Of a stretch of 64,000 bases of DNA, positions 27,910 through 36,645 are shown piece by piece (within the stretch, counting starts at the first letter, position 1; each line of letters starts with the position of its first letter). Position numbers and translations under genes: made by a program. Under the pieces are notes generated by a model, which was given only the letters and a program-made list of their open reading frames with translations, was not told the origin of the DNA and did no database searches. The stretch lies in the NCBI RefSeq assembly GCF_026391055.1, contig NZ_JAPLET010000009.1, positions 248,001-312,000 of the forward strand, in the 5' to 3' direction. This stretch comes from Spirosoma sp. Its GTDB lineage: Bacteria > Bacteroidota > Bacteroidia > Cytophagales > Spirosomataceae.

Positions 27910-28676
27910 TGAAACATGCTATTAACGGCGTTCTCCTGAATGTGCTGGAGCAGGGCAGCGGCTCATTAACCTTAGTCTTTTTGCACTATTTCGGTGGTTC
28001 GGCGCTGGAATGGGAGTCGGTGATGAGCCAGCTTTCGGAGCAATACCGATGTCTGGCCGTCGACCTGCGCGGGCATGGCGACTCGGATGCTCCGGCAACG
28101 GGCTATTCGGTCGATACGATGACTGACGATATTTCGGCGTTGATCGATTCGCTTCATGTACAGGAATTTGTGCTGGTTGGGCATTCGATGAGCGGCAAGG
28201 TAGCACTGGCGTTAGCCGCCCGCCAACCCGCCGGACTTCGGTCGTTGGTGCTGGTGTCGCCCTCGCCCCCCGTACCGGAACCCATCCCCGACGATGAGCG
28301 TGAAAAGCTGCTAACAGGTCATGGAAAACGGTCATCGGCCGAAAAAACCCTCAAGAACATCACTGAAGCTCCGGTTCCAGCAGCCGTTCGGGAGCAGATC
28401 ATTGCGGATGACTTACGAACCGCCAAACCCGCCTGGGATGCGTGGTTGCTGGAAGGCAGTAAAGAAGATATTTCGGAGCGAATGTCAGCCATTGACATTC
28501 CAGTTCATATCATCGTTGGCCAAGAGGATCGGGCCTTACCACCTGATGTGCAGGATAAAATGGTTTTGCCTTATCTGAAAAATGCCTCATTCAATACGAT
28601 AGAACACGCCGGGCACCTGCTCCCGTGGGAGGTACCGGATAAGCTGGCAACTTTTATTCAGAAAAAAATAGGCTAG
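27909..28676 (+). CDS. Alpha/beta hydrolase
   Basis: The 255-residue enzyme has the alpha/beta hydrolase fold. It shows an oxyanion segment FLHYFGG, the nucleophile elbow GHSMSG (Ser93), and a late catalytic His in EHAGHLLPWE. The start codon shares one base with the stop of the GH1-like gene (TGATG), so translation is probably coupled. There is no export signal. The family covers esterases, lactonases and others; given the sugar-oxidising neighbours, a lactonase-like role is possible but not shown. Confidence 0.85.
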   Translation: MKHAINGVLLNVLEQGSGSLTLVFLHYFGGSALEWESVMSQLSEQYRCLAVDLRGHGDSDAPATGYSVDTMTDDISALIDSLHVQEFVLVGHSMSGKVALALAARQPAGLRSLVLVSPSPPVPEPIPDDEREKLLTGHGKRSSAEKTLKNITEAPVPAAVREQIIADDLRTAKPAWDAWLLEGSKEDISERMSAIDIPVHIIVGQEDRALPPDVQDKMVLPYLKNASFNTIEHAGHLLPWEVPDKLATFIQKKIG

Positions 28677-28678
28677 TC

Positions 28679-28710
28679 TTGTTCGGGACAAAACAAAGGT
28701 TTTATATTTG
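28679..28710 (+). promoter_or_regulatory. Bacteroidota-type promoter of tRNA-Pro
   Basis: TTG at 28679-28681 and TATATTTG at 28703-28710 are separated by 21 bases, fitting the TTTG / TANNTTTG pair. The -7 box ends 11 bases before the tRNA. Confidence 0.6.
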
Positions 28711-28721
28711 TGGCCGCAAGG

Positions 28722-28795
28722 CGGGGTGTAGCGCAGCCTGGTAGCGCGCTACGTTCGGGACGTAGAGGTCGTGGGTTCGAATCCCGCCACCCCGA
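28722..28795 (+). tRNA. tRNA-Pro (anticodon CGG)
   Basis: The cloverleaf is complete. The acceptor stem CGGGGTG pairs with CACCCCG, the D arm is GCGC...GCGC, and the anticodon stem CTACG/CGTAG surrounds the loop TTCGGGA with anticodon CGG. The T arm is GTGGG/CCCGC around TTCGAAT. The discriminator base is A at 28795 and CCA is not encoded directly after it. Confidence 0.95.
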
Positions 28796-28810
28796 CACCA
28801 AAACAAAGAA

Positions 28811-28884
28811 GGTAGTGCGCTGGGATAGGGAAGTAGAGATCGTGGCCGGGTCGCCGGTTCGATTCGAATCCCGCGGGGCCGCCA
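28811..28884 (+). pseudogene. Degenerate tRNA-Pro-like remnant
   Basis: This stretch aligns to the second half of the adjacent tRNA-Pro: GGTAGTGCGCT matches GGTAGCGCGCT, AAGTAGAGATCGTGG matches the anticodon 3' arm and variable loop, and GATTCGAATCCCGC matches the T arm. About 10 extra bases interrupt the T arm and the acceptor stem cannot pair, so it is not a functional tRNA. Confidence 0.55.
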
Positions 28885-28955
28885 AGGCCACCTCGACACA
28901 AGTTTCAACTACCAGTTTACAGTCGAACGCTTAGGCAGACTATTTTACAAAAGAC

Positions 28956-29012
28956 ATGAATACTTCGGTTAACAACATGATTTGGTGGTGGCACTCTTCT
29001 CAACAGGGATGA
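28956..29012 (+). CDS. trpL: trp operon leader peptide
   Basis: An 18-codon frame encodes MNTSVNNMIWWWHSSQQG, with three consecutive Trp codons at codons 10-12. It ends 92 bases before the trpE ATG and about 35 bases before a rho-independent terminator. This is the arrangement of a transcription attenuator in which ribosomes stall at Trp codons when charged tRNA-Trp is scarce. The first ATG is used; a second ATG sits two codons before the Trp run. Three adjacent codons for the rarest amino acid, upstream of trpE, are very unlikely by chance. Confidence 0.85.
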   Translation: MNTSVNNMIWWWHSSQQG

Positions 29013-29084
29013 GGTTGCCACTATTGTTGTTTACCAACACATATACAAAGGCTCACCGTCATCCCGGTGAGCCTTATTTTTTTG
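28983..29084 (+). promoter_or_regulatory. trp attenuator: alternative RNA structures
   Basis: The Trp codon segment TGGTGGCA (28986-28993) can pair with TGCCACTA further down (starting near 29017), with one G-U pair. If a ribosome stalls on the Trp codons, that downstream strand is freed. Its GGTTGCC then can pair, with a small internal loop, with the 5' arm of the terminator (GGCTCACC), preventing termination. The pairing scheme is my own hand fold; the leader peptide and terminator are seen directly. Confidence 0.65.
29048..29084 (+). terminator. Attenuator terminator before trpE
   Basis: AAGGCTCACCG and CGGTGAGCCTT form an 11-bp stem with a 6-base loop, followed by ATTTTTTT. It lies 20 bases upstream of the trpE start and after the Trp-rich leader peptide. 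Confidence 0.9.
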
Positions 29085-29104
29085 CCTATAACCACAGAAA
29101 GCCA

Positions 29105-30541
29105 ATGCCAACCCTCACAGCCCCAACCACCTACCGCGTTGTCAGCCGCCACAAACGGATGCTGGCCGACATCATCACACCGGTAAGCATTTATTTGCGC
29201 ATCCGCGACCGGTTCCTGAACAGCATTCTGCTCGAAAGCTCGGATTACCACGGTAACGACAATAGCTTTTCGTACATCGCTTTCGACCCTGTTTCCAGCT
29301 TCTCGTATGACCTGGGCCAGTTGACGGTCCGGATGCCGGGCGAGGAGGAGCAGACGAGTTCGGTGGCCGTCCACGATGTGCTCGACGCGCTTCAGCAATT
29401 CAAAGACAGCTTCCAGCACGAAAAAGCGCCCTTTCCGTTCATCACCAATGGCCTGTTCGGCTACTTCGGTTACCCGGCGGTGCAGAGTTTTGAAGACATT
29501 TCCCTGCATGCGCCCGTTCCGACGGAGAACCAGATTCCGGCCGCCGTTTTCACGGTATACCGGTACGTATTGGCGATAAACCACTTCAAAGATGAGCTGT
29601 TTTTGTTTGAGCACAGCTACTTGCGCGAAGGCGAAACCGAAGCCGACAGCACGCTGGATTACATCAGCGACCTGATCACCGGCCGCAACTACCCAACTTA
29701 CTCATTTAACTCATCCGGGGCAGAAGAATCGAATTTTACGGACGATGAGTTCCGGGCGGTTATCCAGAAAGGGAAAGACCACTGCCAGCGGGGCGATGTG
29801 TTCCAGATCGTGTTGTCCCGCCGGTTCTCCACCCCGTTCCTCGGCGACGAGTTCAACGTATACCGAGCCCTCCGCTCGCTGAACCCCTCCCCTTATTTGT
29901 TTTATTTCGATTACGGCAACTACAAACTATTCGGCTCCTCGCCCGAATCGCAGATTGTCGTTAAAGACCGGAAAGCGACCATCTACCCCATTGCTGGAAC
30001 GTTCCGGCGCACCGGCGACGATATTCACGATGCCGAGTTAGCTCAGAAACTCTACGACGACCCGAAAGAATCGGCCGAGCACGTGATGCTGGTCGACCTG
30101 GCTCGCAACGACCTGAGTCGTAACTGCGATGTGGTGAAAGTCGAGACCTTCAAGGAAGTGCAGTATTATTCGCACGTCATTCACCTTGTTTCGAAAGTCG
30201 TTGGCGACCTGACCGAAACCGCCGACCCGCTCCAGATCGTGGCCGAAACCTTCCCGGCCGGAACGCTCTCGGGTGCCCCCAAGCACAACGCCATGCAGTT
30301 GATCGACCGATACGAGAACATCAGCCGTAGCTTCTACGCAGGCAGCATCGGCTACATGGGTTTCGATGGTGAGTTTAATCACTGCATCATGATCCGGACG
30401 TTTATGAGTAAAGACAATACGCTTTATTACCAGGCCGGTGCCGGTGTGGTCGCCAAGTCGGTGGTCGAAAGCGAACTACAGGAAGTACACAACAAACTGG
30501 CCGCCTTACGGACAGCCATTGAGCAAGCGAAACTGATATAG
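29105..30541 (+). CDS. trpE: Anthranilate synthase component I
   Basis: TrpE makes anthranilate from chorismate using ammonia supplied by TrpG, the first committed step to tryptophan. The chosen ATG gives a 478-residue protein of normal length; the longer frame from 28982 runs through the leader and terminator and is not real. Visible motifs are LLES near residue 42 (part of the tryptophan feedback site), PIAGTFRRTGDD, the VDLARNDL block and the GTLSGAPK active-site block. It is first in a trpE-G-D-C-F-B-A operon controlled by the upstream attenuator. Confidence 0.97.
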   Translation: MPTLTAPTTYRVVSRHKRMLADIITPVSIYLRIRDRFLNSILLESSDYHGNDNSFSYIAFDPVSSFSYDLGQLTVRMPGEEEQTSSVAVHDVLDALQQFKDSFQHEKAPFPFITNGLFGYFGYPAVQSFEDISLHAPVPTENQIPAAVFTVYRYVLAINHFKDELFLFEHSYLREGETEADSTLDYISDLITGRNYPTYSFNSSGAEESNFTDDEFRAVIQKGKDHCQRGDVFQIVLSRRFSTPFLGDEFNVYRALRSLNPSPYLFYFDYGNYKLFGSSPESQIVVKDRKATIYPIAGTFRRTGDDIHDAELAQKLYDDPKESAEHVMLVDLARNDLSRNCDVVKVETFKEVQYYSHVIHLVSKVVGDLTETADPLQIVAETFPAGTLSGAPKHNAMQLIDRYENISRSFYAGSIGYMGFDGEFNHCIMIRTFMSKDNTLYYQAGAGVVAKSVVESELQEVHNKLAALRTAIEQAKLI

Positions 30542-30648: not shown

Positions 30649-31215
30649 ATGAAACTCCTGGTATTAGATAACTACGATTCATTCACCTACAACCTCGTGT
30701 ATATTCTGCGGGAGTTGGGGCATCGGCCCGATGTGATCCGGAATGATAAAATTGCCCTCGACGCGGTGGGGCAGTACGACAAAATCATGCTGTCGCCGGG
30801 GCCGGGTATCCCGTCCGAAGCGGGTATTATGCAGGACTTGGTAGCCGAATACGGCCCGACGAAAAGCATTCTGGGTATTTGCCTCGGGCATCAGGGGATC
30901 GGCGAAGTGTATGGCGCGTCGCTGGAAAATCTGGGCGATGTGCTGCATGGCGTCGGCCACAAAGCGACCGTTACGGACCGCTCGGAACGGCTCTTCGCGG
31001 GCATCCCTGAGGAGCTGACCGTGGGCCGGTATCACTCCTGGACCGTTGTTCCAGACTCGATGCCCGCCGATCTCCGCACCACCGCCGTCGACGAGCAAGG
31101 CCGGGTAATGGGTTTATCGCATGTACGTTTCGACGTCAAAGGCCTGCAATTCCACCCCGAATCGGTATTGACCGAGAATGGCGTGAAGATGCTGGAGAAC
31201 TGGTTAGCCATTTGA
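30649..31215 (+). CDS. trpG: Anthranilate synthase component II (glutamine amidotransferase)
   Basis: TrpG releases ammonia from glutamine for TrpE. The ATG at 30649 gives a 188-residue protein starting MKLLVLDNYDSFTYN, the conserved N-terminus; the longer upstream frame is made of palindrome sequence. The oxyanion segment SPGPGIP, the nucleophile in GICLGHQ (Cys78) and the catalytic His-Glu in FHPES are all present. No fused PabA or TrpD domain is seen. It sits between two palindromic repeats within the operon. Confidence 0.96.
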   Translation: MKLLVLDNYDSFTYNLVYILRELGHRPDVIRNDKIALDAVGQYDKIMLSPGPGIPSEAGIMQDLVAEYGPTKSILGICLGHQGIGEVYGASLENLGDVLHGVGHKATVTDRSERLFAGIPEELTVGRYHSWTVVPDSMPADLRTTAVDEQGRVMGLSHVRFDVKGLQFHPESVLTENGVKMLENWLAI

Positions 31216-31216
31216 T

Positions 31217-31288
31217 GTCTGGGCCAAGCTCCAGCTTGGCCTGTGTAAAATTTCCCATTCAGTGGCCAAGCTGGAGCTTGGCCCAGAC
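31217..31288. repeat. Perfect 25-bp inverted repeat between trpG and trpD
   Basis: Positions 31217-31241 are the exact reverse complement of 31264-31288, with a 22-base loop. Each arm holds the near-palindrome GGCCAAGCTCCAGCTTGGCC, with an asymmetric CC/GG centre, so it has the same two-unit design as the family B elements but a different sequence. Confidence 0.9.
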
Positions 31289-31296
31289 GGAATCTT

Positions 31297-32283
31297 ATGA
31301 AAGCCATTCTAAACCACTTATTTGAATACAAACACCTCGCCAAGGACCAGGCGCGGGAGGTGTTGCTGGGCATTGGCCGGGGCGAGTACAACCCCGCACA
31401 GATTGCCTCGTTCCTGACCGTGTACATGATGCGGAGTTTGCGGCTAGAGGAGCTGGAAGGGTTCCGCGATGCCATGCTGGAACTCTGCCTGCCGGTCGAC
31501 CTCGACGCCTACGACCCCATGGACCTGTGCGGCACCGGGGGCGACGGCAAAGACACGTTCAACATCTCAACCCTGTCGTCGTTTGTAGTGGCTGGGGCGG
31601 GCCAGTGTGTAGCCAAGCACGGGAACCACGGCGTGTCGTCGCTGGTGGGTTCGTCGACGGTGATGGAGAAACTTGGGTATCAGTTTACCAACGATGCGGG
31701 CGAGTTACAGCGCAAAATGGAAACGGCGGGAATTTGCTTTTTGCACGCTCCATTGTTTCACCCGGCTATGAAGAATGTAGCGCCCATCCGTCGGGATCTG
31801 GGCGTCAAAACATTCTTCAACGTGCTGGGGCCGATGATCAACCCGGCAAAGCCTGCAAAACAGCTCGTTGGCGTGTTTAATCTTGAATTGGCGCGATTAT
31901 ATGCGTACCTTTATCAACAAACTGATAAGCAGTTTATGATTCTGCACGCCCTCGACGGGTACGATGAAATTTCGCTGACGGGTTCTTTCAAGGTCATCAG
32001 CAACAAGACCGAGCAAGTGCTTGAGCCAGAGGACCTAGGACTGGACAGACAAACCTCCGAATCGCTGGCTGGCGGGCATACATTGGACGAGTCGGCGCAG
32101 ATATTTTTGAACGTACTGAACAACGAATCCACGTCGGCCCAAAAGCAGGCCGTGTTAGCCAACTCCGCGATGGCGTTACTGGCTGCCGGTAAGGCCGACA
32201 CCCGCGAAGACGCCGTTGCCATGGCCCGCGAGTCGCTGGAAAGTAAACGGGCGTTGGCGTGTTTTAAGAAGTTAATAGCATGA
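31297..32283 (+). CDS. trpD: Anthranilate phosphoribosyltransferase
   Basis: TrpD joins anthranilate to PRPP. The 328-residue protein has the glycine-rich PRPP-binding block CGTGGDGKDTFNIST near residue 74, the KHGNHGVSS block near 107 and the DxxTG-like GYDEISLTG segment. Its length is normal for the stand-alone enzyme. Its last bases overlap trpC by 4, so translation of the two is probably coupled. Confidence 0.97.
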   Translation: MKAILNHLFEYKHLAKDQAREVLLGIGRGEYNPAQIASFLTVYMMRSLRLEELEGFRDAMLELCLPVDLDAYDPMDLCGTGGDGKDTFNISTLSSFVVAGAGQCVAKHGNHGVSSLVGSSTVMEKLGYQFTNDAGELQRKMETAGICFLHAPLFHPAMKNVAPIRRDLGVKTFFNVLGPMINPAKPAKQLVGVFNLELARLYAYLYQQTDKQFMILHALDGYDEISLTGSFKVISNKTEQVLEPEDLGLDRQTSESLAGGHTLDESAQIFLNVLNNESTSAQKQAVLANSAMALLAAGKADTREDAVAMARESLESKRALACFKKLIA

Positions 32284-33089
32284 CCATTCTTGACCAGATA
32301 ATTGCCCAGAAGCGCATCGAAGTAGCCGAGCGCAAAGCCGCCACCACCATTCAGGCGCTGGAACTAATGCCCGACTTCCGACGGGAAACCCTGTCGGCAC
32401 GGGATGCCATTCAGGATTTACACTCGACGGGCATCATTGCTGAGTTCAAACGGAAGTCGCCCTCCAAAGGAATCATCAACGACCGGGCCGACGTAGCTAC
32501 TACCACACAGGGCTACGTAACATCAGGAGCCGCCGTGCTGTCTGTTCTAACCGACGAGCCGTTTTTTGGCGGTACTCTCGCCGATTTACAGGCCGCCCGA
32601 TTGGCCAATCCCGGAACGCCGATTCTTCGGAAAGACTTTATCGTTGACCGATACCAATTGATCGAAGCCAAAGCCTGGGGAGCCGATGTGGTATTGCTCA
32701 TTGCTGCCTGCCTGACACCCGAAGAAGTCACTGAACTCAGCATGCAGGCCCACGACCTGAGCCTGCAGGTGCTACTCGAAGTACACGACGAGGAAGAACT
32801 CGACCGCTCGCTGAACTACAACATTGACTTAGTGGGCGTTAACAACCGCGACCTCAAAACGTTTACAACCTCCATCGAAACCTCGCTGCGATTGATTGAT
32901 AAGATTCCGGACACCTTCGCTAAGATCACCGAAAGCGGGCTGCACGATGCGGATACCATGCTGACGCTGTTCCGGGCGGGCTTCGACGGATTTCTGATCG
33001 GTGAAGCATTCATGAAAACGGACGATCCGGCCAAAGCCCTCGCTGATTTAGTTACGCAATACTCCATCAATAATACGCTATCAATTTAA
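32280..33089 (+). CDS. trpC: Indole-3-glycerol phosphate synthase
   Basis: TrpC closes the indole ring to give indole-3-glycerol phosphate. The 269-residue (beta/alpha)8 barrel shows the signature AEFKRKSPSKG near residue 55, with the catalytic lysines and glutamate. LRKDFIVDRYQ, LLEVHDEEEL, GVNNRDLKTF and SGLHDADT are the later phosphate and active-site strands. It is not fused to TrpF, which is encoded next. Confidence 0.97.
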   Translation: MTILDQIIAQKRIEVAERKAATTIQALELMPDFRRETLSARDAIQDLHSTGIIAEFKRKSPSKGIINDRADVATTTQGYVTSGAAVLSVLTDEPFFGGTLADLQAARLANPGTPILRKDFIVDRYQLIEAKAWGADVVLLIAACLTPEEVTELSMQAHDLSLQVLLEVHDEEELDRSLNYNIDLVGVNNRDLKTFTTSIETSLRLIDKIPDTFAKITESGLHDADTMLTLFRAGFDGFLIGEAFMKTDDPAKALADLVTQYSINNTLSI

Positions 33090-33100
33090 CTTGTACAGCC

Positions 33101-33742
33101 ATGAAAATCAAAGTGTGCGGTCTGCGCGATGCCGACAACCTGAAAGAGATTGCCGCCCTTGGCCCTGACTTTGTAGGATTCATCTTCTACGACCAGTCCC
33201 CACGCTTTGTTGGCGAAGAGTTAGATGCTGAACTAGTTAAGTCGCTGCCCCGCTCGATTCGAAAGGTGGGCGTGTTCGTGAATGCCAGCCCGGATTTGAT
33301 TCTGCGATCGGTAAAGAAATACGACTTTCAGTATGTACAATTACACGGCAACGAAACGCCTGACTATTGTCGGAGCCTTCGCAACCGGGGCATCAACATC
33401 ATCAAAGCGTTCCGGGTCGATGAGTCGTTCAACTTCTCCATGCTGAACAACTACAAAGCTCAGTGCGACTTTTTCCTGTTCGACGCCAAAGGCGATCAAC
33501 CCGGCGGCAACGGACACACCTTCGACTGGGGCATTTTAAGCCGTTACGACAACGAGAAGCCGTTTTTCATCAGTGGCGGCATCGGCCTTGACAACCTCGA
33601 CCAGCTGGCCGCGCTGAAAGGCATGAAGCTCTACGGCGTCGACGTAAACAGCCAGGTCGAAACATCGCCGGGGGTGAAGGACGTAGAGAAAGTAAAGGAA
33701 CTCATCAACCGGCTGCGGCCTATTGAGGAAGAGGTGGAGTAA
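33101..33742 (+). CDS. trpF: Phosphoribosylanthranilate isomerase
   Basis: TrpF converts phosphoribosylanthranilate to its ribulose form. The 213-residue barrel opens with KVCGLRDADNL containing the catalytic Cys. It has LHGNETP near residue 84, the catalytic Asp in FFLFDAKGDQPGGNG, and the phosphate loop ISGGIGLDN. In the pathway it acts before TrpC although its gene lies after. An A+T-rich pair of genes follows and separates it from trpB. Confidence 0.96.
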   Translation: MKIKVCGLRDADNLKEIAALGPDFVGFIFYDQSPRFVGEELDAELVKSLPRSIRKVGVFVNASPDLILRSVKKYDFQYVQLHGNETPDYCRSLRNRGINIIKAFRVDESFNFSMLNNYKAQCDFFLFDAKGDQPGGNGHTFDWGILSRYDNEKPFFISGGIGLDNLDQLAALKGMKLYGVDVNSQVETSPGVKDVEKVKELINRLRPIEEEVE

Positions 33743-33764
33743 ATAAACCTATTTTATTCATAAG

Positions 33765-33772
33765 TATATTTG
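33765..33772 (+). promoter_or_regulatory. Possible -7 promoter box before the inserted cassette
   Basis: TATATTTG matches the Bacteroidota -7 consensus exactly and lies 5 bases before the ATG of the next gene. No TTG is seen at the expected upstream distance, so this is a weak call. Confidence 0.25.
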
Positions 33773-33777
33773 AGCTT

Positions 33778-34236
33778 ATGAATGAGCCCGCCTATACATT
33801 ACAGATAAGTAGTGATGTTTTATCTTTTACATTCGACAGTGTTAGTTCTCAGAACGTAATTCATAAAGCTATTGAGTTTAGTCCTTTTCCAGCAAATGCT
33901 ATCTTTTATAATCTAGCCTTGCTTGATGTTGATGAAGATGGTACAACCAATGACTTAGCTATCAGCAATAATCAGGATATGAACCGAGTTATTGCTACTG
34001 TTTTTAAGGCTATGCGGGCATTTTTCGAGAAACACCCAAACAAGCTGGTTTACTTTAAAGGCAGTGACGAAACAGGCATACGTACCCGGTTATACAGAGC
34101 ACTTATTTCAAGAGAACTGGAACAGGCTAGCGAAATGTTTGCCATTTACGGCCAACTTACCGAAGATACGTACGAGGAATTTGCGCCTAACAGACCTTAT
34201 ATAGCCTTCATATTTCAACTAAAGCATTCACGATGA
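33778..34236 (+). CDS. Uncharacterised 152-residue protein inserted in the trp operon (possibly DUF6934 family)
   Basis: I do not recognise a function. The sequence is soluble and has no signal peptide or membrane segment. The middle contains FYNLALLDVDEDGTTNDLAISNNQDMNRVIATV, then KLVYFKGSD and a helix TRLYRALISRELEQASEMFAIYG. The general pattern recalls the roughly 150-residue DUF6934 proteins of Bacteroidota, but I cannot verify that. The DNA is visibly richer in A+T than the trp genes around it and codon use differs. The stop overlaps the start of a small gene by 4 bases. It is unrelated to tryptophan synthesis and probably arrived as a cassette. Confidence 0.7.
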   Translation: MNEPAYTLQISSDVLSFTFDSVSSQNVIHKAIEFSPFPANAIFYNLALLDVDEDGTTNDLAISNNQDMNRVIATVFKAMRAFFEKHPNKLVYFKGSDETGIRTRLYRALISRELEQASEMFAIYGQLTEDTYEEFAPNRPYIAFIFQLKHSR

Positions 34237-34415
34237 GCACGACTGAACGCAAAAAGCCAGTAGTCCGGTTTAAAACGAAAGATACGCCGGAAATGACTAA
34301 AAAGGGTAAATATGAATCTGTTGAAGCTGCTTCCCGAGCCAAAATGGAGTCGGCTAAAGAGTTCGTTGCTAACCTCGATATGACGCTTTTCAGGAAAAAC
34401 GGGCATGTTGAATAA
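34233..34415 (+). CDS. Small basic 60-residue protein, partner of the preceding gene
   Basis: The frame starts inside the stop of the preceding gene (ATGA overlap), which supports translation as a pair. The protein is highly charged and Lys-rich at its N-terminus (ERKKPVVRFKTKDTPEMTKKGK), with a predicted helix in EAASRAKMESAKEFVANLD and no signal or membrane segment. No family is recognised. A two-gene, overlapping, A+T-rich unit of one mid-size and one small charged protein is reminiscent of toxin-antitoxin modules, but nothing in either sequence proves that. Confidence 0.65.
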   Translation: MSTTERKKPVVRFKTKDTPEMTKKGKYESVEAASRAKMESAKEFVANLDMTLFRKNGHVE

Positions 34416-34521
34416 CTAACTTTTCTGCCACATTACTTAACGACAGTGTCAATGGAAACGACAATGTCTTCAGACGATGACGTTCTTCCGATAAAATACG
34501 CTTACTAAAGCATTGAGTATC

Positions 34522-35721
34522 ATGCAAACCACTCTTGAACCACAAACCTCATTCGAGGTATCAAATAAAGGCTTTTATGGCCACTTCGGTGGAGCGTTCA
34601 TTCCTGAAATGCTCTACCCTAATGTCGAAGAGTTACGGCAGAATTACCTGAACATCATCGCCGACCCGGCGTTTCAGGCAGAGTTCTGGCAGTTGCTCGA
34701 AGAGTATGTTGGCCGGCCAACGCCGTTGTTTCTGGCCAAACGTCTGTCGGCGCATATCGGGGCTACCATCTACCTCAAACGCGAAGACCTTTGCCATACA
34801 GGCGCGCACAAAATCAACAACACCATCGGCCAGATTCTAGTCGCGCAACGGCTGGGCAAAAAGCGCATCGTGGCCGAAACGGGCGCCGGTCAGCATGGCG
34901 TGGCAACGGCCACCGTTTGCGCCCTGATGGGCCTGGAGTGCATTGTGTACATGGGCAGCATCGACATGGAGCGACAGAAGCCCAATGTCGACCGGATGCG
35001 GATGCTGGGGGCCAAAGTGGTACCGGCTACGTCGGGCAGCCAGACCCTCAAAGACGCTACTAATGAAGCCATGCGTCACTGGATCAACAACCCCGTCGAC
35101 ACGCACTATATCATCGGTTCGGTGGTGGGTCCTCACCCCTACCCGGATATGGTAGCCCGCTTCCAGTCGGTTATTTCCGAAGAAGTGAAGAAGCAGTTGT
35201 TAGCGAAAACAGGTAGCGAAAACCCCGATTACATGGTGGCCTGCGTAGGTGGAGGCAGTAATGCTGCCGGTGCCTTCTTCCACTACCTGAACGAGCCAAC
35301 GGTACGGCTGGTAGCGGCTGAAGCCGCTGGTCAGGGTATCAGTACGGGACATTCGGCCGCGACTACGGCGCTGGGTAAGCCCGGCGTGTTGCACGGAAGC
35401 CGTACGATTCTGATGCAAACGGAAGATGGTCAGGTAACGGAGCCATATTCGATTTCGGCGGGTCTGGATTATCCGGGCATTGGACCGCTCCACGCGCACC
35501 TGTTCGAATCGGGCCGGGGCGATTTTTATGCCATTACGGACGATGAAGCCCTGCAAGCCGGTTTCCAGCTCAGCAAACTCGAAGGTATTATTCCGGCACT
35601 GGAAACAGCCCACGCGCTGGCCGCACTAGAGAAAATGAACCTCAACGCCAATGATGTGGTAGTCGTATGCCTATCCGGCCGTGGCGATAAAGATTTAAGC
35701 ACGTACTCGAAGTTTTTGTAG
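34522..35721 (+). CDS. trpB: Tryptophan synthase beta chain
   Basis: TrpB condenses indole with serine using pyridoxal phosphate. The ATG at 34522 gives a protein of about 399 residues; a TTG three codons upstream is less likely. The cofactor lysine is in [13 protein letters not shown] (Lys97), followed by [13 protein letters not shown] and the phosphate-binding GGGSNA loop. The sequence ends in the family's [10 protein letters not shown] block. It continues the trp operon after the inserted cassette, 106 bases past its last gene. Confidence 0.97.
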
Positions 35722-35742
35722 TACTGTACCGACGACCCGGTT

Positions 35743-35796
35743 CGTTTAGCCGTCAGGTTTCTTGCACATCCTCAAAGTTAGCCTGACGGCTAAACG
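35743..35796. repeat. Inverted repeat between trpB and trpA
   Basis: CGTTTAGCCGTCAGG at 35743-35757 is the exact reverse complement of 35782-35796, separated by 24 bases. GTACT/AGTAC pairs can be added further out. There is no T-run, so it does not look like a terminator and trpA is expected to be transcribed through it. Confidence 0.8.
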
Positions 35797-35838
35797 GAGT
35801 ACCAGCGCACAGGCGGCCCTGTCCTTCTTACATAACCA

Positions 35839-36645
35839 ATGACCCAAGAACTTACTCAAAATCGCATCACTAGCCTGTTTGCGCAGAAAAGCGAACGGCT
35901 GCTGAACGTATATTTTACGGCCGGATACCCGAGCCTGAACGATACCACCACCATTCTGCGGGGCTTACAGGCTGCGGGGGTAGACATCGTTGAAATTGGT
36001 ATGCCCTACTCCGACCCTGTTGCCGATGGCGAAACCATTCAGCAAAGCAACGGTGTCGCCTTGGACAACGGTATGTCGATTAAAACGCTTTTTGCCCAAC
36101 TGGCCGATTGCCGGAACGCTACCCACGGCGAACCCATTACGGTGCCCATTCTGCTGATGGGCTATATCAATCCTGTACTACAATTTGGCGTCGAAAACTT
36201 CTGCCAGAAGTGTCAGGAAGTGGGTGTGGATGGTGTTATTCTTCCCGACCTTCCGCTGGATTTGTTTCTGGAAGAATACGCACCGATCTTCCGTCAATAC
36301 GGCATTCTGAACGTTCACCTCATTACGCCCCAAACCACCGAAGAACGCATTCGATTCATCGACGCCGAATCGGACGGATTCATTTATATGGTTTCGTCGG
36401 CAAGCATCACCGGCTCGGTGAAAGGGGTTAGTGATACGATGAAGACGTATTTTGAGCGGATTCAGGCCATGAACCTGCGTAACCCGCGTTTGATTGGCTT
36501 CGGTATCAACAACCATGAGACCTTCGACATGGCCAGTCAATTTGCGAACGGTGCCATTGTGGGTAGCGCGTTCATCCGGCACTTGTCCGAAAAAGGTACG
36601 TCGCCCGAGAGCATTCGCGCGTTTGTAGAAACGATTCGGTCGTAA
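35839..36645 (+). CDS. trpA: Tryptophan synthase alpha chain
   Basis: TrpA splits indole-3-glycerol phosphate and passes indole to TrpB through an internal channel. The 268-residue barrel has both catalytic acids in VDIVEIGMPYSDPVADG (Glu52, Asp63), the PDLP strand in the middle, and the phosphate loops GFGINN and GAIVGSAF late. It is the last trp gene of the operon; hisIE begins 16 bases after its stop. Confidence 0.97.
   Translation: MTQELTQNRITSLFAQKSERLLNVYFTAGYPSLNDTTTILRGLQAAGVDIVEIGMPYSDPVADGETIQQSNGVALDNGMSIKTLFAQLADCRNATHGEPITVPILLMGYINPVLQFGVENFCQKCQEVGVDGVILPDLPLDLFLEEYAPIFRQYGILNVHLITPQTTEERIRFIDAESDGFIYMVSSASITGSVKGVSDTMKTYFERIQAMNLRNPRLIGFGINNHETFDMASQFANGAIVGSAFIRHLSEKGTSPESIRAFVETIRS

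Follow-up and report, generated by a model that had tools for sequence, protein, structure and literature searches.

The question that this locus raises is whether a short reading frame with consecutive tryptophan codons and the hairpin that follows it, directly upstream of trpE in a Spirosoma genome, act together as a transcription attenuator of the trp operon. The window, by which we mean the whole 64-kb stretch of DNA that was analyzed, belongs to an 8 Mb genome (G000), in which trpE shares 96% identity with its Spirosoma fluviale counterpart. On the + strand, a tRNA-Pro(CGG) gene is followed by a 159-nt spacer, the leader ORF, a terminator, and trpE:

28722 to 28796, + strand: tRNA-Pro, anticodon CGG (Rfam match and tRNA calling)
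28956 to 29012, + strand: leader peptide ORF of 18 codons, MNTSVNNMIWWWHSSQQG and a stop codon (direct reading; homologous ORFs in relatives)
28983 to 28991, + strand: TGG-TGG-TGG, the proposed ribosome stall site, part of strand 1 (direct reading)
29048 to 29083, + strand: intrinsic terminator with an 11-bp stem, a 6-nt loop, and T7 (pattern scan and stem alignment)
29105 to 30541, + strand: trpE, the first structural gene, with its ATG at 29105 (Pfam Anth_synt_I_N and Chorismate_bind)
30649 to 36645, + strand: trpG, trpD, trpC, trpF, a DUF6934 gene, trpB, and trpA (Pfam; gene names derived from the families)

A sequence-only reading of this DNA had described an 18-codon frame with Trp-Trp-Trp, a terminator, and trpE in succession, and direct reading together with the Pfam assignments bears this out: the ORF starts at the ATG at 28956 and stops at the TGA at 29010-29012. 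The locus thus has a short ORF with tandem codons for the amino acid that the operon makes, as a leader-peptide attenuator should, and an intrinsic terminator between that leader and the first gene. According to Pfam, a hisIE-type gene lies 3' of trpA, and the DUF6934 gene (33778-34236) sits between trpF and trpB inside the trp operon.

The WWW short ORF is unique in the window on both strands, and no other WWW short ORF was found in 989,420 bases (both strands counted) of the named loci, which are the best 80 of 524 trpE-like loci from a public genome scan. A WWW ORF is present in 128 of 186 real upstream regions, compared with 3 of 18,600 dinucleotide-shuffled ones; for a WWW ORF with a terminator the counts are 118 of 186 and 0 of 18,600. 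Compared with dinucleotide shuffles, 28940-29105 folds with a z-score of -5.9, and none of 200 shuffles reaches this. The 17-base core pattern of the leader occurs once in the genome, and the leader had no match in the plasmid collection. Because a tRNA gene lies upstream on the same strand in the window, the hairpin might merely terminate the tRNA-Pro transcript, with trpE having its own promoter and the WWW ORF being accidental. We regard this as very improbable: the leader ORF and a T-run hairpin are kept in 47 of the 50 named loci (within the best 80 of 524) that have no called tRNA, the 21 nt from the end of the T-run at 29083 to trpE at 29105 are too few for a separate promoter, and the shuffle control argues against a chance origin of the Trp run.

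A pattern scan of 28640-29140 finds this terminator and no other. Its stem is formed by 29048-29058 and 29065-29075, and the T7 occupies 29077-29083. Upstream of it lies the element on which a switch would depend:

29006 to 29023, + strand: strand 2, which contains the leader stop codon (folding and clade-swap test)

Strand 2 can pair either with strand 1 (28983-29001) or with 29050-29065, forming an antiterminator. In the window the antiterminator is a 13-bp duplex, in which 29006-29012 pairs with 29059-29065, 29013-29015 with 29055-29057, and 29017-29019 with 29050-29052. The proposal that the Trp-codon segment pairs with a middle strand that can in turn pair with the 5' arm of the terminator therefore stands, with the correction that the antiterminator also takes in the terminator loop. 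In the window, strand 2 pairs with its own terminator arm at -21.7 kcal/mol, whereas 40 shuffles average -8.5. In stage-by-stage folding of the window, nascent RNA with a stalled ribosome formed the antiterminator, RNA with the ribosome at the stop codon formed the terminator, and RNA free of ribosomes formed the 1:2 stem together with the terminator. An antiterminator that excludes the terminator, freed by stalling and masked when the ribosome finishes the leader, is thus predicted from sequence and folding. With the 3' arm in place, the terminator becomes the more stable of the two folds even while the ribosome is stalled, and the predicted switch must therefore be kinetic. Kinetic switching is also seen in other attenuators. 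Across relatives, the antiterminator pairs form in the stalled nascent RNA of 155 of 155 loci, a count that lacks a shuffle control and carries no weight here.

Taken with the conservation described below, we consider it very likely that the leader and terminator before trpE constitute a ribosome-mediated transcription attenuator of the trp operon. When charged tRNA-Trp is sufficient, the ribosome would pass the three Trp codons and arrive at the stop codon inside strand 2; masking of strand 2 would then allow the terminator at 29048-29083 to form. When charged tRNA-Trp is scarce, the ribosome would stall at 28983-28991, covering strand 1, and strand 2 (29006-29019) would pair with the 5' arm and loop of the terminator (29050-29065), so that RNA polymerase would continue into trpE. 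Without translation, strand 1 would pair with strand 2 and the terminator would form. The ORF, the Trp run, the terminator, the alternative pairings and their conservation can be read directly from the sequences; stalling, ribosome-polymerase coupling, and a response to tryptophan are inferred from them.

To what extent is this arrangement shared? In 77 of the 80 named relatives (best 80 of 524), trpE is preceded by a short ORF that starts with ATG and contains WW or WWW. The tandem-Trp leader is missing in the other three named loci of those 80, L026, L073, and L079; L026 is the second trpE-like locus of a MAG that also gives L064, which has a leader, and L073 has just 95 nt of upstream sequence. 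The stricter combination of a WWW ORF and a terminator is missing in 16 of the 80 (again the best 80 of 524), one reason being that only two Trp codons are present in most Larkinella and some Dyadobacter. In the Larkinella loci L029-L036, the leader frame overruns the usual stop and ends further downstream (26-28 codons), and seven of the eight have two Trp codons instead of three; the pairing between strand 2 and the terminator arm is kept. L075 carries two attenuators in tandem, one about 375 nt and the other about 150 nt upstream of trpE; both have a WWW leader ORF, a hairpin, and a T-rich run of their own, those of the second as read by eye.

For a wider view, a phylum draw of 198 genomes gave 170 with a trpE match at E <= 1e-60, and a class draw of 168 genomes gave 52 with a match at E <= 1e-100. 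From a subset of these matches, 105 further upstream regions were taken (45 loci and 60 by position). With a looser pattern, an ORF containing WW or WxW was found in 83 of these 105 loci (67 of the 78 inside the class, 16 of the 27 outside it), and some of these ORFs are weak. No leader was found before trpE in 11 of the 78 loci inside the class or in 11 of the 27 outside it (L172, L174, and L180-L188). Counted as misses are L124, at a contig edge with almost no upstream sequence, and L126, with 130 nt upstream. Four genomes without a leader before trpE (G258, G284, G310, and G332) have an RF01692 element about 1.3 kb upstream of trpE; in G258 and G332 the sequence just before trpE reads by eye as trpB, and so trpB seems to come first there. 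The Trp run and the alternative stems, whose conservation in close relatives had been proposed as a test of the mechanism, are therefore conserved far beyond close relatives.

Covarying stems had been suggested as a further check, and the outcome differed between the stems. Alignment A1 comprises 28 of 77 sequences (27 distinct) from the Spirosoma group plus L083, the window included. In A1, every one of the 297 terminator cells is paired, and 4 of 11 pairs show compensatory changes on both sides. The 1:2 stem, with 90.6% of 459 cells paired, scores only a little higher than shuffles do (22 of 500 reach its score). For the antiterminator, 93.4% of 351 cells are paired, but its covariation in A1 does not exceed that of shuffles (score 0.050 versus 0.050; 207 of 500 shuffles as high), because there is hardly any variation there. 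Support for the antiterminator comes instead from comparison between clades. Over 155 loci, strand 2 pairs with its own arm at a mean of -16.6 kcal/mol, compared with -11.8 for foreign arms and -9.7 for shuffled ones; 82 of the 155 loci beat all 40 shuffles and 73 do not. At 113 of the 155 loci, this duplex shares bases with the leader stop codon. In a clade-swap test, one random locus was drawn per clade from 77 clades, ten times, with labels assigned by hand from titles and genus handles; these random draws replace a first version with 39 representatives that had been hand-picked after the energies were known. Own pairs averaged -15.8 to -16.0 kcal/mol and permuted pairs about -11.0 (SD about 0.34), and in each of the ten draws none of 2,000 permutations was as good. 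Typically, a clade's strand 2 still pairs equally well with about 6 or 7 of the 76 foreign arms. The automatic choice of leader and terminator was wrong in places, and these rows were left uncorrected: L092 (another ORF) and L075 (the first of two leaders). Strands matched to each other across clades are required of an antiterminator and not of a plain terminator. The ribosome-stalling switch that the sequence-only reading had inferred is thus well supported by the conserved Trp run, the terminator, and the alternative pairing.

At the gathering threshold, the only Rfam match in the window is to tRNA; both trp-leader families appear at a relaxed threshold alone. RF01692 (Bacteroid-trp) scores 31.5 bits (26.0 for a shorter stretch) against a gathering cut-off of 49, and RF00513 (Trp_leader) scores 31.3 bits over the full model against a cut-off of 41. 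Like RF01692, the window element belongs to the same phylum and occupies the same place before trp genes; in the alignment, the AUG and Trp codons of the model are in register with the leader start and Trp codons of the window, and the 1:2 stem follows. Unlike the window element, the model stops at the 5' arm of the terminator. With stricter filters, 7 of 168 genomes of this class score above the RF01692 cut-off, the window genome not among them, as does Bacteroides ihuae among 14 control genomes; among 54 directly scanned sources, the window included, three do so, all of family f7. By the Rfam rule the window element is not a member of RF01692, and its predicted workings are those of one. It resembles the E. 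coli type of trp leader (RF00513) in its tandem-Trp leader ORF, its mutually exclusive stems, and a terminator before trpE, and differs in lying outside the Proteobacteria. TRAP, TrpR, and T-box systems control trp genes in other organisms, and a protein or a tRNA-binding leader of one of these types could in principle act here with no leader peptide. We give this almost no credence: neither a T-box nor any other Rfam family apart from tRNA reaches its gathering score in the window, and the Trp codons are kept in frame across many clades.

The remark in the sequence-only reading that such control is less documented in this phylum calls for a qualification: RF01692 already describes the kind there, as a prediction. 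Vitreschak et al. 2004 reportedly include Bacteroidetes/Chlorobi among their predictions. Rfam names RF01692 the "Bacteroidete tryptophan peptide leader RNA"; the family is listed in Weinberg et al. 2010 (PMC2864571) and has been noted upstream of the Flavobacterium psychrophilum trp operon (PMC6414381). A transcriptome study of F. psychrophilum reports clues for leader-peptide attenuation before amino-acid operons and confirms the expression of five Rfam cis-elements (PMC9723704), among which RF01692 may be included. Our literature search, which took in few subscription journals and no supplements, turned up neither a direct test of a trp attenuator from the Bacteroidota nor a trp operon headed by a tRNA.

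Where does the transcript that carries the attenuator begin? The sequence-only reading had not mentioned the upstream tRNA-Pro or its probable promoter role. A similarity search found this to be the only CGG copy in the genome, the other match being tRNA-Pro(GGG). Two further features surround it:

28703 to 28710, + strand: TATATTTG, a perfect TAnnTTTG -7 box 11 nt before tRNA-Pro, the probable promoter of a tRNA-Pro/trp-leader transcript
28825 to 28902, + strand: decayed second tRNA-Pro copy in the spacer (shared TTCGAATCCCGC, spacing 87; bounds by eye)

TAnnTTTG is the -7 box of Bacteroidota promoters recognized by the housekeeping sigma factor, 4-5 nt before the transcription start (PMC6847099, PMC9723704). 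The tRNA search covered the 80 named loci (best 80 of 524) and the window, and only perfect TAnnTTTG boxes were counted. In the Spirosoma promoter group, defined as 36 loci with the window included and L026 and L083 left out, 31 loci have a tRNA-Pro upstream of the leader, and all 31 have a perfect box 3-13 nt before the tRNA. The remaining five (L005, L007, L010, L018, and L025) have no tRNA by ARAGORN, although tRNA remnants are visible in all of them. Remnants like those in the window were seen by eye at L008, L012, L016, L017, L019, L021, and L064, and the called tRNA-Pro of L015, L020, L023, L028, and L071 has 91-95 nt and carries an insertion in or close to its T arm, which would fit a decaying gene. 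Of 33 distinct loci that were scanned, 11 have a 5S rRNA gene ahead of the trp locus (L020, L024, L027, L028, L030, L032, L034, L036, L042, L043, and L063); the trp operon therefore follows an rRNA operon in several genera, which probably explains the contig breaks there. L024, recorded as Flavobacterium sp. SUN052, has a trpE 76% identical to that of the window and the order 5S, tRNA-Pro, leader, and is possibly misnamed.

The simplest reading of these sequences is that the trp operon of the Spirosoma group uses the tRNA promoter. Alternatively, most leader transcription could start at a separate promoter in the spacer that follows tRNA-Pro, the tRNA being a mere neighbor. The window spacer is long (159 nt) and has a weak box-like TATTTTAC shortly before the ATG, and a further perfect box lies between the tRNA start and the leader in 2 of the 31 tRNA-bearing loci, mismatched boxes being outside this count. 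Moreover, L083 (Arsenicibacter, trpE 80% identical) has the leader but no called tRNA, and no perfect box lies within 75 nt of that leader; there must therefore be imperfect promoters. Against this, 16 of the 31 loci leave 30 nt or less between the tRNA end and the leader start, with no perfect box between the tRNA start and the leader in any of these 16; all five loci without a called tRNA keep the box ahead of the tRNA remnants, 57-99 nt before the leader start. Overall, 90 of 156 loci have a perfect box in the 75 nt preceding the leader, as do 87 of 121 outside the Spirosoma group, compared with 4.4% of shuffles. We therefore think a separate leader promoter in this group unlikely; the long spacer of the window may hold a weak one.

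Transcription from the tRNA-Pro promoter, through the tRNA and into the leader, is what we infer as probable for Spirosoma, Fibrisoma, Fibrella, Rudanella-like bacteria, and Larkinella; the tRNA-Pro would then be cut out of the joint tRNA/leader transcript. More broadly, it seems reasonably likely that in the Spirosoma-Fibrella-Larkinella lineage the trp operon has come under a stable-RNA promoter, its transcript starting with tRNA-Pro(CGG), with tRNA 3' processing creating the 5' end of the attenuator and the promoter being kept after tRNA decay. In the same proposal, the leader ORF elsewhere in the phylum often begins 0-4 nt from the predicted transcription start, and the sensing ribosome would thus have to load on leaderless RNA. 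The box spacing of 4-8 nt at 38 of the 121 loci outside the group predicts 5' leaders of 0-4 nt. Leaderless mRNAs make up 5.5% in F. psychrophilum (PMC9723704), and about 3.7% of B. thetaiotaomicron 5' UTRs are shorter than 10 nt (PMC7366714). The thrU-tyrU-glyT-thrT-tufB unit of E. coli gives a joint transcript of tRNAs and an mRNA. There a tRNA promoter drives a downstream protein gene, as it would here; unlike in E. coli, the passenger here would be an amino-acid-sensing attenuator with a biosynthetic operon.

Leaders for other amino acids were sought by locating the HisG, PDT, Homoserine_dh, and ILVD_EDD_N families in the window's own genome and 13 relatives, giving 55 loci. A strict scan of these 55 for His, Phe, Thr/Ile, and Ile/Leu/Val leaders with a terminator returned one doubtful ORF (L241). 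A relaxed scan without the terminator recovered the Trp leader in 22 of 22 control loci, and its Phe matches looked scattered. A His-rich short ORF ending in FRHRRHH(H)GC or similar lies upstream of hisG in 9 of 13 hisG loci (L192, L193, L195-L199, L201, and L202; L199, at about 1133-1195, is from the own genome, and L198 was identified by eye). By eye, its ATG lies 4-5 nt after a TAnnTTTG or similar box, which may make it leaderless, and some synonymous changes keep His. A search for an intrinsic terminator at this ORF found none, and some 90 nt further downstream there is another box-like site (by eye). It is a possible his leader.

The kind of element and its presence in the phylum were already known, as a prediction, and the RF01692 model misses the copy in the window. 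As far as our searches reach, what looks new is the extent, the clade-wide match between the switch strands, and the tRNA-headed form. Leader-peptide trp attenuation appears to be spread over much of the Bacteroidota, well beyond the reach of the Rfam model, and annotation by that model therefore misses the element in most of the families sampled. Bacteroidota mRNAs are described as lacking Shine-Dalgarno sequences (PMC6847099), and the element offers a testable case of attenuation in such bacteria. If an amino-acid operon is joined to a tRNA promoter in the Spirosoma group, this could, speculatively, tie the operon to stable-RNA growth-rate control.
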